Assembly (NCBI GenBank): GCA_012840135.1
Contig: DUMA01000038.1
Coordinates: 1 to 64,000, forward strand
Origin: Thermoanaerobacterales bacterium
Lineage (GTDB): Bacteria; Bacillota; Thermosediminibacteria; Thermosediminibacterales; Tepidanaerobacteraceae
DNA length: 64,000 bases
Reading direction: 5' to 3'
Position 1 is the first letter of the stretch. Every line of letters begins with the position of its first letter. Under the pieces are notes generated by a model that was not told the origin of the DNA, ran no database searches, and worked only from the letters and a program-made list of their open reading frames with translations. A program made the position numbers and the translations under genes. Below, piece after piece: positions 11,302-15,590 of the stretch.

Positions 11302-11616
11302 ATGAAGTTTTATGAAATGCGTATATACACAATCAAAGCGGGTCAGTTAGGGACTTACGTCAAATTATTTGAAGAAGAAGGTTTTCCTATCATATCAAAA
11401 TATCAAAAGTTGGTAGGATACTGGTACACCGATATTGGTGAACTTAACGAAGTAGTTCATATTTGGGAATATGATAGTTTGGATGAAAGGGCAGAAAAGA
11501 GAAAAGCCTTATATGAGGATCCGGAATGGAAAAAATTTACATCAAAGGCATTTTCCCTAATTCTAAGTCAAAAGAATAAAATCATGTACCCCTCTAACTT
11601 TTCACCAATAAAATAA
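11302..11616 (+). CDS. NIPSNAP-family protein
   Basis: 104 aa, ATG start behind AAGGGAG. The beginning MKFYEMRIYTIKAGQ and the later HIWEYDSLDERAEKR are typical of the NIPSNAP family, small dimeric alpha/beta-barrel (ferredoxin-like) proteins. Bacterial members often sit in catabolic operons for aromatic or acyl compounds but have no agreed biochemical role. Here it lies 24 bases after the 3-hydroxyacyl-CoA dehydrogenase and 41 bases before the second SDR start, clearly inside the operon. It could be a small-molecule-binding or isomerase-like accessory; this is a guess. Confidence 0.8.
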   Translation: MKFYEMRIYTIKAGQLGTYVKLFEEEGFPIISKYQKLVGYWYTDIGELNEVVHIWEYDSLDERAEKRKALYEDPEWKKFTSKAFSLILSQKNKIMYPSNFSPIK

Positions 11617-12428: not shown

Positions 12429-12471
12429 AGTATTATATCTATAATTTAGGATGAGAAAAGGTGGATTTGTG

Positions 12472-12918
12472 ATGTCGAAAATTCTGGGAAGTGAATTGAC
12501 AAGAGAATTGGTGAACCTTCTAAACAGTAAAGGTGTAACGGTGGTTTTAGCTACTATTTCAGGAGATAACTATCCCAATACCACACCTGTACACTTGATA
12601 ACAGCTCCTAACGAGAAAAAGGTTAGAATGGCACTGGGGAAGATGCATCAATCTTATATGAATATAAAAGCAAATGAAAATGTAATGATAAATATACTTG
12701 AGTCCAATGACACGGCTATAAGTATAAAAGGGAATGCAAGAATTATTAAAGACCCGATGGAAGGCAATAAAAATATGGCCATGGTAGAAGTTGAAGTGCT
12801 GGAAATAAAGAGTGATACAACGCCAACTCTGATTGTAACCGACGGTATAAAGACAAAACACCGCACGGCTAAGACGCCTGAATTTTTCAGGTTGATGTTT
12901 GATGAACTTAATTCTTAA
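12472..12918 (+). CDS. Pyridoxamine 5'-phosphate oxidase-like flavin-binding protein
   Basis: 148 aa from ATG 12472, behind AAAAGGTGG; an in-frame ATG 21 bases earlier is less well placed. The pattern of a split-barrel FMN-binding protein is seen: helix, then a strand with VVLATISGDNYPNTTPVH, a strand with KVRMALGK, and a helix followed by NVMINILE and ISIKGNARII. Members bind FMN, F420 or heme and include many uncharacterised reductases. It immediately precedes the 4-hydroxybutyryl-CoA dehydratase, itself an FAD/[4Fe-4S] enzyme, and might supply or maintain flavin, but that is speculation. Confidence 0.75.
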   Translation: MSKILGSELTRELVNLLNSKGVTVVLATISGDNYPNTTPVHLITAPNEKKVRMALGKMHQSYMNIKANENVMINILESNDTAISIKGNARIIKDPMEGNKNMAMVEVEVLEIKSDTTPTLIVTDGIKTKHRTAKTPEFFRLMFDELNS

Positions 12919-12937: not shown

Positions 12938-14383
12938 ATGAAAAACAGGGAACAATACATTGAAAGCTTAAAAAATTTAAAGACACAAGTTTATTATTTT
13001 GGAAAGAGAATTGATAATATCATTGAACATCCCAGCTTTAAACCACACATAAACAGTGCGGCTTTGACATATGAACTGGCAAATATGCCGGAGTACGAAG
13101 AACTGCTGACAGCCACATCCCATTTAACCGGCAAAAAAATAAACAGATTTACCCATATACATCAAAGCACAGAAGATTTAGTTAAGAAGGTAAAAGCCTT
13201 AAGATTACTGGGCCAAAAAACGGGTGCTTGTTTTCAAAGATGTGTAGGATGGGATGCCCTCAATGCTACTTACACAGTAACTTACGAAATGGACCAGAAA
13301 TATGGGACCGATTATCACAAGAGATTTCTTGAATATCTTAAATTTGTTCAAGAAAATGATCTTATGATCGCAGGGTCTATGACTGATCCGAAAGGAGATA
13401 GAAGCTTAAGGCCCAGCCAACAAGCGGACCCTGATTTGTATGTCCATATTGTAGAAAAAAATGACAAAGGAATTGTTGTTAGAGGAGCCAAAGCGCATCA
13501 AACCGGCATAATAAATTCTCATGAAATGATTGTTATGCCCACAATCGCCATGGGTGAAGAGGACAAGGATTACGCGGTGGTATTTGCGATTCCCGTAGAC
13601 ACGGAAGGTGTTATACATATTTTCGGAAGGCAGACCAATGACTCCAGGCGCTTTGAAGAAGGTGAAATTGATAAAGGCAACTACAAATACGGCATCGTAG
13701 GTGGTGAGGCATTAACCATCTTCAATGACGTCTTTGTGCCCTGGGAAAGGGTATTCATGTGCGGCGAGTTTGATTATGCGGGGCTTTTAGTAGAGCGCTT
13801 TGCCTCTTATCACCGTCAAAACTACGGCGGATGCAAGACCGGTGTCAGTGATGTTATTATAGGTAGTGCCGTAGCAATTGCTGAATATAACGGTGTTGCA
13901 AAAGCATCACATGTAAGAGATAAAATAGTAGAAATGGTTCATCTGGCCGAAACTCTTTATTGCGGCTCAATAGCATGTTCTGCCGAAGGCTTTCCAACAC
14001 CGTCTGGCGCTTATTTCGTTAATCCGCTACTTGCCAATACGGTAAAACAGAACGTAACAAGGTATATCTATGAAATATGCCGGTTATGCCATGATATAGC
14101 CGGTGGTATTATAGCGACACTGCCTTCAGAAGCAGATTTGAAGAACGAGGAAATCGGACCTTATATCGAAAAATATCTTAAAGGTGTTGCCGATGTTTCT
14201 ACTGAGGATAGGATCAGAATACTGCGTTTGATTGAAAATATGACCGGAGGAACGGCATTAGTTGAGTCAATGCATGGAGCAGGATCGCCCCAGGCCCAGA
14301 GGATAATGATTTTGAGACAGGCCAATTTAAATCAAAAGAAAAAGCTTGCCGAGGATTTAGCCGGGATTAAAAAGGAACATTGA
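12938..14383 (+). CDS. abfD: 4-hydroxybutyryl-CoA dehydratase / vinylacetyl-CoA isomerase
   Basis: 481 aa, ATG behind AAGGGGAGAG. The enzyme removes water from 4-hydroxybutyryl-CoA by a radical mechanism to give crotonyl-CoA, using FAD and a [4Fe-4S] cluster. All four cluster ligands known from the Clostridium aminobutyricum enzyme are here: Cys98 and Cys102 in ACFQRCVG, His292 and Cys299 in YHRQNYGGCKTG, with unchanged spacing. GAKAHQTG, MTDPKGDR and ESMHGAGSPQAQRIM are also shared. This separates it from 4-hydroxyphenylacetate 3-monooxygenases of the same fold, which lack the cluster. It is oxygen-sensitive, fitting an anaerobe. The thiolase, dehydrogenase and crotonase around it complete the route to acetyl-CoA. 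Confidence 0.95.
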   Translation: MKNREQYIESLKNLKTQVYYFGKRIDNIIEHPSFKPHINSAALTYELANMPEYEELLTATSHLTGKKINRFTHIHQSTEDLVKKVKALRLLGQKTGACFQRCVGWDALNATYTVTYEMDQKYGTDYHKRFLEYLKFVQENDLMIAGSMTDPKGDRSLRPSQQADPDLYVHIVEKNDKGIVVRGAKAHQTGIINSHEMIVMPTIAMGEEDKDYAVVFAIPVDTEGVIHIFGRQTNDSRRFEEGEIDKGNYKYGIVGGEALTIFNDVFVPWERVFMCGEFDYAGLLVERFASYHRQNYGGCKTGVSDVIIGSAVAIAEYNGVAKASHVRDKIVEMVHLAETLYCGSIACSAEGFPTPSGAYFVNPLLANTVKQNVTRYIYEICRLCHDIAGGIIATLPSEADLKNEEIGPYIEKYLKGVADVSTEDRIRILRLIENMTGGTALVESMHGAGSPQAQRIMILRQANLNQKKKLAEDLAGIKKEH

Positions 14384-14683
14384 ATGAAAATCGTTGGAAT
14401 CAAATATTGTGGCGAATGTAACCCTGAAATAGATATTGGAGACTTTATGAAAAGATTGAAATTGCGTTTGAATTCTTTGGGTTTTACACTCACTACAGAT
14501 ATTGATAAATCCTATGGGCTGATCATAGTAAACGGATGTAGGGTTGGATGTCTAAAAAGGGAAAAGTTCGCAAACTTTGAAAACATAGTTGTTATCAATG
14601 GCGCCAGTATAGACTCAGTCATTGTTGATGAATCTAAACTGGCGGAGAAAATAGCCGAAAAATTATTCGGAGGGAATTGTTGA
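14384..14683 (+). CDS. Unknown 99-aa cysteine protein coupled to abfD
   Basis: I do not recognise this family. Its ATG directly follows the abfD stop and its own TGA overlaps the next start, so it is translated with abfD and the crotonase. Visible features: a CGEC pair (Cys9, Cys12) followed by NPEIDIGDF, a central alpha/beta stretch, NGCRVGCLKRE (Cys52, Cys56) and a final cysteine at residue 99. The two cysteine pairs suggest a metal or iron-sulfur site or a redox-active disulfide. Position argues for a role with AbfD, for instance cluster protection or reactivation; this is inference. Confidence 0.7.
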   Translation: MKIVGIKYCGECNPEIDIGDFMKRLKLRLNSLGFTLTTDIDKSYGLIIVNGCRVGCLKREKFANFENIVVINGASIDSVIVDESKLAEKIAEKLFGGNC

Positions 14684-15468
14684 TGGAAGAAAAATATGTA
14701 TTGAGAGAGGACGTATCAAAGCGAATTGCACTCCTCACAATAAACAGGCCCAAGTTTTTAAATGCATTGAACAGGGCAACTTTAGAACAGCTTTATGAAG
14801 AGTTGAAAGCATTAAGTAATGACACAAATATTGGCTGCCTTATAATCACGGGAAGTGGCAACAAAGCCTTTGTAGCGGGGGCGGACATCGAAGAACTAAG
14901 GAACATGACATGTTTTGAAGCCAGGGAATTTTCAAAATTAGGCCATGAGATTTTTAACTTGATAGAAAACTATGACAAACCTGTGATAGCAGCAGTGAAC
15001 GGCTATGCGCTTGGAGGCGGATTGGAACTTGCTCTTTCCTGTGATATAAGAATAGCAGCAGAAAACGCTAAGTTTGGACTTCCGGAGATTAATCTCGGCA
15101 TTATTCCCGGGTTTGGAGGCACTCAACGGCTCCCCAAGGTTGTAGGTATGGGTAAGGCGAAAGAGATGATATTTACAGGAAAAGTTATAGATGCGATAGA
15201 AGCCGAAAAGATAGGGTTGGTAAACAAGGTTGTACCAGGCGAAGAATTACTAAAATCTGCAATAGAATTGTCAAATGAGATTACATCGAAAAGCAGCCTT
15301 GCTTTAAAGCAGGCTAAAGATTGTATAAACAAGGGTTTTGAAGAACCTGTTGAGACGGGTGTCATCATTGAACGAAATGCTTTCAGCCTTTGTTTTTCTA
15401 CTGAGGACCAAAAAGAAGGGATGACAGCATTTCTGGAAAAACGCAAACCCGAATTTACAAATAGGTGA
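14683..15468 (+). CDS. Enoyl-CoA hydratase (crotonase)
   Basis: 261 aa from ATG 14683, which overlaps the previous stop and follows CGGAGGGAA; a TTG two codons earlier is less likely. Oxyanion-hole segments GNKAFVAGADIEEL and NGYALGGGLELALSCD are present, and both catalytic glutamates are conserved (Glu115 and Glu135, 20 residues apart as Glu144/Glu164 in rat crotonase). It adds water to crotonyl-CoA to give 3-hydroxybutyryl-CoA, so it takes the AbfD product and feeds the dehydrogenase and thiolase upstream. It is the last gene of the island; a hairpin follows. Confidence 0.95.
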   Translation: MEEKYVLREDVSKRIALLTINRPKFLNALNRATLEQLYEELKALSNDTNIGCLIITGSGNKAFVAGADIEELRNMTCFEAREFSKLGHEIFNLIENYDKPVIAAVNGYALGGGLELALSCDIRIAAENAKFGLPEINLGIIPGFGGTQRLPKVVGMGKAKEMIFTGKVIDAIEAEKIGLVNKVVPGEELLKSAIELSNEITSKSSLALKQAKDCINKGFEEPVETGVIIERNAFSLCFSTEDQKEGMTAFLEKRKPEFTNR

Positions 15469-15560: not shown

Positions 15561-15590
15561 AAAAAGCGGGACAATACCCCGCTTTTTATT
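15561..15590. terminator. Bidirectional terminator between converging units
   Basis: AAAAAGCGGGG-type stem (AAAAAGCGGG, loop, CCCCGCTTTTT) with A run on one side and T run on the other. It lies between the crotonase (+) and AEC permease (-) genes and can serve both. Confidence 0.85.

Follow-up and report, generated by a model that had tools for sequence, protein, structure and literature searches.

A four-cysteine protein encoded beside abfD, a candidate [4Fe-4S] maturation or repair factor for 4-hydroxybutyryl-CoA dehydratase

The 99-residue protein encoded directly downstream of abfD in the analyzed window (the whole stretch of 64,000 nucleotides) is predicted, with a probability of roughly 0.5, to be a stand-alone [4Fe-4S] protein that employs C9, C12, C52 and C56 as ligands and assembles, hands over or repairs the cluster of AbfD, the 4-hydroxybutyryl-CoA dehydratase. 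The more specific proposal, namely that a free-standing domain of the sulfite reductase/IspG type serves specifically to mature or repair the AbfD cluster, in some lineages together with a NifU-type carrier paired with it, is tentative and falls somewhat below even odds. Two CO2-fixation cycles and the fermentation of GABA and succinate to butyrate depend centrally on 4-hydroxybutyryl-CoA dehydratase, which has also attracted interest in 1,4-butanediol engineering; we know of no enzyme-specific cluster factor for this class of enzymes. The product shows no significant sequence match in Pfam, NCBIfam or the PDB, and no description of the small protein was found in open-access papers on AbfD with NifU, cluster assembly or the operon, so that its original designation as an undescribed protein stands.

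The abfD operon and the small gene

Judging by its sequence, the upstream neighbor really is a genuine 4-hydroxybutyryl-CoA dehydratase gene because the best PDB match of its product is 1u8v (the dehydratase/isomerase of gamma-aminobutyrate metabolism; E 9e-198) and all four cluster ligands are conserved. The 3' part of the operon consists, in this order, of genes for an SDR, the PNPOx_N protein, AbfD, the 99-residue protein and a crotonase, followed by a terminator-like hairpin (Table 1). A NIPSNAP protein is encoded in the same operon; neither this protein nor the PNPOx_N protein has a role assigned to it in the metabolism of 4-hydroxybutyrate.

The start and stop of the small gene were originally described as touching both neighbors, and this is indeed the case. 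Its ATG, shortly preceded by a Shine-Dalgarno-like AAGGA, begins at the very next base after the abfD stop (TGA, 14381-14383), and its own stop (TGA, 14681-14683) shares its last base with the likely ATG of the crotonase gene. The open reading frame listing gives TTG 14677 as the crotonase start; GGAGG precedes the ATG at 14683, which is hence the likelier one. In addition to the two cysteine pairs, the protein contains a non-conserved C99.

Table 1. Coordinates of features in the window
Feature	Position	Strand	Basis or remark
99-aa four-cysteine protein (99 codons), predicted stand-alone [4Fe-4S] domain	14384..14683	+	sequence, alignments, AlphaFold models, structure matches
Codons of C9-G-E-C12, first predicted cluster-ligand pair	14408..14419	+	invariant in the 12- and 67-sequence alignments
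Codons of C52-R-V-G-C56, second predicted cluster-ligand pair	14537..14551	+	aligns with the sulfite-reductase CxxxC
abfD, 4-hydroxybutyryl-CoA dehydratase (FAD + [4Fe-4S])	12938..14383	+	ligands C98, C102, H292, C299
Enoyl-CoA hydratase (crotonase)	14683..15468	+	start overlaps stop of the 99-aa gene
PNPOx_N flavin-binding-type protein	12451..12918	+	directly upstream of abfD, same operon
Terminator-like hairpin after the crotonase gene	15561..15587	+	probable operon end
NIPSNAP protein	11302..11616		same operon as abfD
NifU-domain protein, 78 aa	27984..28220	-	outside the abfD operon

Conservation of the family and its linkage to abfD

A pattern scan using the single window protein retrieved zero relatives; these were found by profile search and share about 20-40% identity. 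In an alignment of 12 and then of 67 sequences, K7, C9, G10, C12, N13, C52 and C56 are invariant, and N13 varies in the whole-genome profile matches (CGGCS, CGGCD). A CxxC near the N-terminus followed by a CxxxC about 40 residues on is present in 80/80 loci from the pattern scan of the collection, in which the first pair was pre-selected and is therefore not independent, and the second was unselected. The whole-genome profile searches did not require the motif for a match. Of the 59 distinct members that the profile searches recovered in the surroundings of abfD or in the second phylum described below, 57 retain both pairs; of the other two, one has an in-frame stop and one was called from a start inside the gene. 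Homologues have accordingly kept the cysteines, the loss of which had been named in advance as speaking against the original prediction, and the four residues (C9xxC12, C52xxxC56) are the signature of the family.

A chance open reading frame is ruled out by this conservation and by the linkage to abfD. In two relatives (L010:1501-1700 and, in Desulfosporosinus, L102:4986-5319), the small gene contains an in-frame TGA and is apparently decaying; the gene can therefore be lost. A selenoprotein reading of these two is ruled out because the stops replace non-cysteine codons. A plasmid search yielded no match.

The co-occurrence with abfD is nearly complete in two samples. In 398 genomes of the window phylum (abfD called at E<=1e-60), the family is present in 26 and abfD in 67, and 25 of the 26 carriers have abfD (hypergeometric p ~1e-20); in 198 genomes from the phylum of a Syntrophobacteraceae genome (abfD called at E<=1e-150), the respective numbers are 34 and 51, with abfD in 33 of the 34 carriers (p 2e-23). 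A profile search for homologues adjoining abfD had been set beforehand as a test, and homologues do not lie mostly far away from this gene. In the window phylum, 24 of the 30 matches immediately follow abfD in the same orientation (23/29 when the window copy is excluded), and two further matches are divergent neighbors of abfD; in the second phylum, 21/35 directly adjoin abfD on the same strand, 13 downstream and 8 upstream. Both gene orders are seen, and the pairing has therefore been kept through rearrangement. In the scan of the collection, abfD is directly upstream in 49 of the best 80 loci. Several members that are away from abfD adjoin genes for crotonase, 3-hydroxyacyl-CoA dehydrogenase or SDR. 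The location between abfD and crotonase, as originally noted, is thus recurrent on the abfD side but incidental on the crotonase side because genes of several kinds follow (CoA-transferase, thiolase, SDR or crotonase).

In a Xanthobacteraceae (alphaproteobacterial) genome (L103), abfD and the small gene are found in a butyrate-type operon, through either horizontal transfer or a binning error. In Smithella-like and other deltaproteobacterial loci (L085, L099, L112 and L120), the neighborhood of the small gene contains a distant (38-40%) AbfD paralogue, not a true abfD, and a gene assigned by eye to a TetR-type regulator. A further possible member, judging by its position, is CD630_23400 of C. 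difficile; this gene, annotated as a 'hypothetical protein' with no name, separates abfD from cat2 and is listed with iron-regulation data (PMC6311696).

The linkage is restricted to one set of AbfD enzymes. Among 100 AbfD-family loci taken for comparison, the small gene adjoins 23 of the 53 abfD genes with at least 57% identity to the window AbfD and none of the 47 at 55% or below (p 3e-8); the ORF caller did not pick up one of the 23 (L207), which is counted here from the other analyses. The 47 distant AbfD-like genes are never accompanied by the small gene, although most of them keep the same four CCHC ligands. Within the broad clade of the window AbfD, 30/53 abfD genes have no adjoining small gene and 15/40 genomes have no copy at all. 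On the AbfD tree, the presence of the small gene requires at least nine changes, and one supported clade of 37 is wholly devoid of it, that is, the gene has been repeatedly gained or lost beside these enzymes. Given that about half of the abfD genes of the clade lack a neighboring copy and the distant clade lacks it wholly, the small gene is not universally required. Several genomes encode more than one AbfD of the window clade but a single small protein, which may serve both copies. Furthermore, the AbfD of C. aminobutyricum has reportedly been produced in active form in E. coli, so that the small protein would not be strictly essential there. Genome context still suggests an accessory role, as originally proposed: the linkage supports this part of the proposal, with the restriction that not every AbfD needs the protein.

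NifU-type neighbors and domain fusions

In several lineages, a gene for a stand-alone NifU-type domain (PF01106, E ~1e-24) with a CxxC separates abfD from the small gene or immediately precedes abfD. Among the 100 sampled loci, PF01106 is encoded beside the small gene in 8 of the 25 loci that contain it and is present in 0/75 of those that do not (p 6e-6). NifU/Nfu C-terminal domains are Fe-S carriers which, encoded beside the small gene in several clades, are likely to take part in the same process although they share no sequence similarity with the 99-residue protein (profile probability 1.5%). In the window genome, the sole NifU-domain match is 13 kb away and adjoins CobS-like and phosphoglycerate-mutase-like genes (named by eye).

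In-frame fusions also occur, in which the small domain precedes an acetyl-CoA hydrolase/transferase-type CoA-transferase (L142 of Fusibacter and L144 of C. tyrobutyricum), a CoA_trans-family protein (L111), a crotonase (L174) or a MaoC-like hydratase (L188, and L196 by similarity to L188). All fusion partners have pathway steps close to that of AbfD; some of the fusions, e.g., that in L174, may be lost stop codons. These fusions, along with the one-base overlap with the crotonase gene in the window, are compatible with a structural or channeling subunit that links AbfD to the enzymes that follow it in the pathway. Such a function is nevertheless distinctly unlikely: the fusion partners differ and some possibly reflect lost stops, scaffolding needs no four invariant cysteines, and the NifU-domain genes would be left unexplained.

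Predicted fold and the proposed role in cluster maturation

AlphaFold2 predicts a beta-alpha-beta-beta-beta-alpha arrangement for both the window protein (pLDDT 89, pTM 0.81) and a relative, L075 (94.8 and 0.87). With neither model does Foldseek retrieve a structure at E<=0.001. In the VIA-align comparison, the cluster domain of IspG (3noy_D, residues 257-351) ranks second for the window model (83 residues) and first for the L075 model (81 residues), with Z 8.1 for both, a value just above background; unrelated folds of the Rossmann-like and receiver types reach 7-8.6. For the L075 model, DsrI (3or1) and nitrite reductase (3b0m) appear as well, at Z 6.7 and 6.4, respectively; notably, three [4Fe-4S] proteins of one fold are thus among its top 15 matches. 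A thioredoxin-like [2Fe-2S] ferredoxin, an early idea, is absent among the structural matches listed.

The similarity of the models to the C-terminal domain of IspG (GcpE) is colinear, with 20-24% identity over the 81-83 aligned residues, and in both proteins a CxxC ends strand 1 and a GC motif follows a later strand. Unlike the single 99-residue domain with four cysteines, complete IspG is a multi-domain isoprenoid enzyme composed of a barrel and the C-terminal cluster domain. Its cluster is held by three cysteines and one glutamate, located seven residues past the third cysteine, whereas the family has a cysteine at +4.

The best remote profile match, at 62-67% probability, is the sulfite/nitrite reductase domain (NIR_SIR, PF01077); the 73 aligned columns include the CxxxC cluster motif. 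This domain seems to share the order of cysteine pair, helix, strand and GCxxxC. It differs in the first pair (approximately Cx5C against Cx2C), and the 99-residue protein is free-standing, with no siroheme enzyme around. Direct searches with PF01077 gave no match for the window protein at E<=10 nor for any of the 67 members at E<=1, and the profile-profile match to IspG is weak and non-significant (8-29%). The DGC domain (PF08859; putative zinc-binding) scores about level with sulfite reductase (53-73%) over 14-33 columns. In the controls, six unrelated families reach at most 1.5%, shuffled profiles 0/100 (NIR_SIR and DGC), and CoA-transferases containing the fused domain, the positive control, 99%.

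The weak matches to DGC (15/67 members, best E 0.01), Rdx (6/67, best E 0.009) and TIGR02174 (4/67, best E 0.0011) could alternatively indicate a thiol-disulfide protein with an Rdx/SelW-like CxxC or a DGC-like zinc protein, and the family has a strand-then-GCPxxCA segment in common with DGC. We consider this very unlikely. The first cysteine region is unlike that of DGC and the single-sequence matches are weak; none of the Rdx/SelW profiles in Pfam and NCBIfam scores over the cut-off, the window protein having no match to them. Rdx proteins are not known to have a second cysteine pair. No selenocysteine variant was found, the in-frame TGAs replacing non-cysteine codons, and the NifU-domain context also argues against a thiol or zinc function. 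Taken together, the structural and profile comparisons favor, short of proof, a [4Fe-4S] site rather than one for zinc or a disulfide. Of the two options originally suggested for the CxxC and CxxxC pairs, a metal site gains from the IspG/sulfite reductase match and the NifU neighbors, and a disulfide becomes less favored.

From the computed fold similarity and gene linkages, we infer the binding of a cluster, a contact with AbfD and the direction in which transfer would run, as follows. The four conserved cysteines would bind a [4Fe-4S] cluster in a fold resembling the cluster domains of IspG and the sulfite/nitrite reductases. Produced next to AbfD, the small protein would build, transfer or repair the unusual [4Fe-4S] cluster of this enzyme, which is held by three cysteines and one histidine; in several clades, it may work with the dedicated NifU-type carrier encoded alongside. 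The main rival is that the protein does not build the cluster but, as a [4Fe-4S] electron carrier, resets the redox state of the AbfD FAD and cluster, for instance when the radical has been lost or over-oxidation has occurred. AbfD uses FAD and the cluster in a transient radical reaction, and in sulfite reductase and IspG the predicted fold serves electron transfer or catalysis. This function appears unlikely, though less so than the other alternatives, considering that the NifU-domain partners point to cluster delivery and that no conserved reductase gene is present beside the small gene in the loci read.

Altogether, the small protein appears to be a partner of AbfD in the two sampled phyla that is paired with genes for Fe-S carriers, which allows the making or protection of the oxygen-sensitive, histidine-ligated cluster of AbfD to be directly tested. 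The same small gene could raise the yield of recombinant AbfD.
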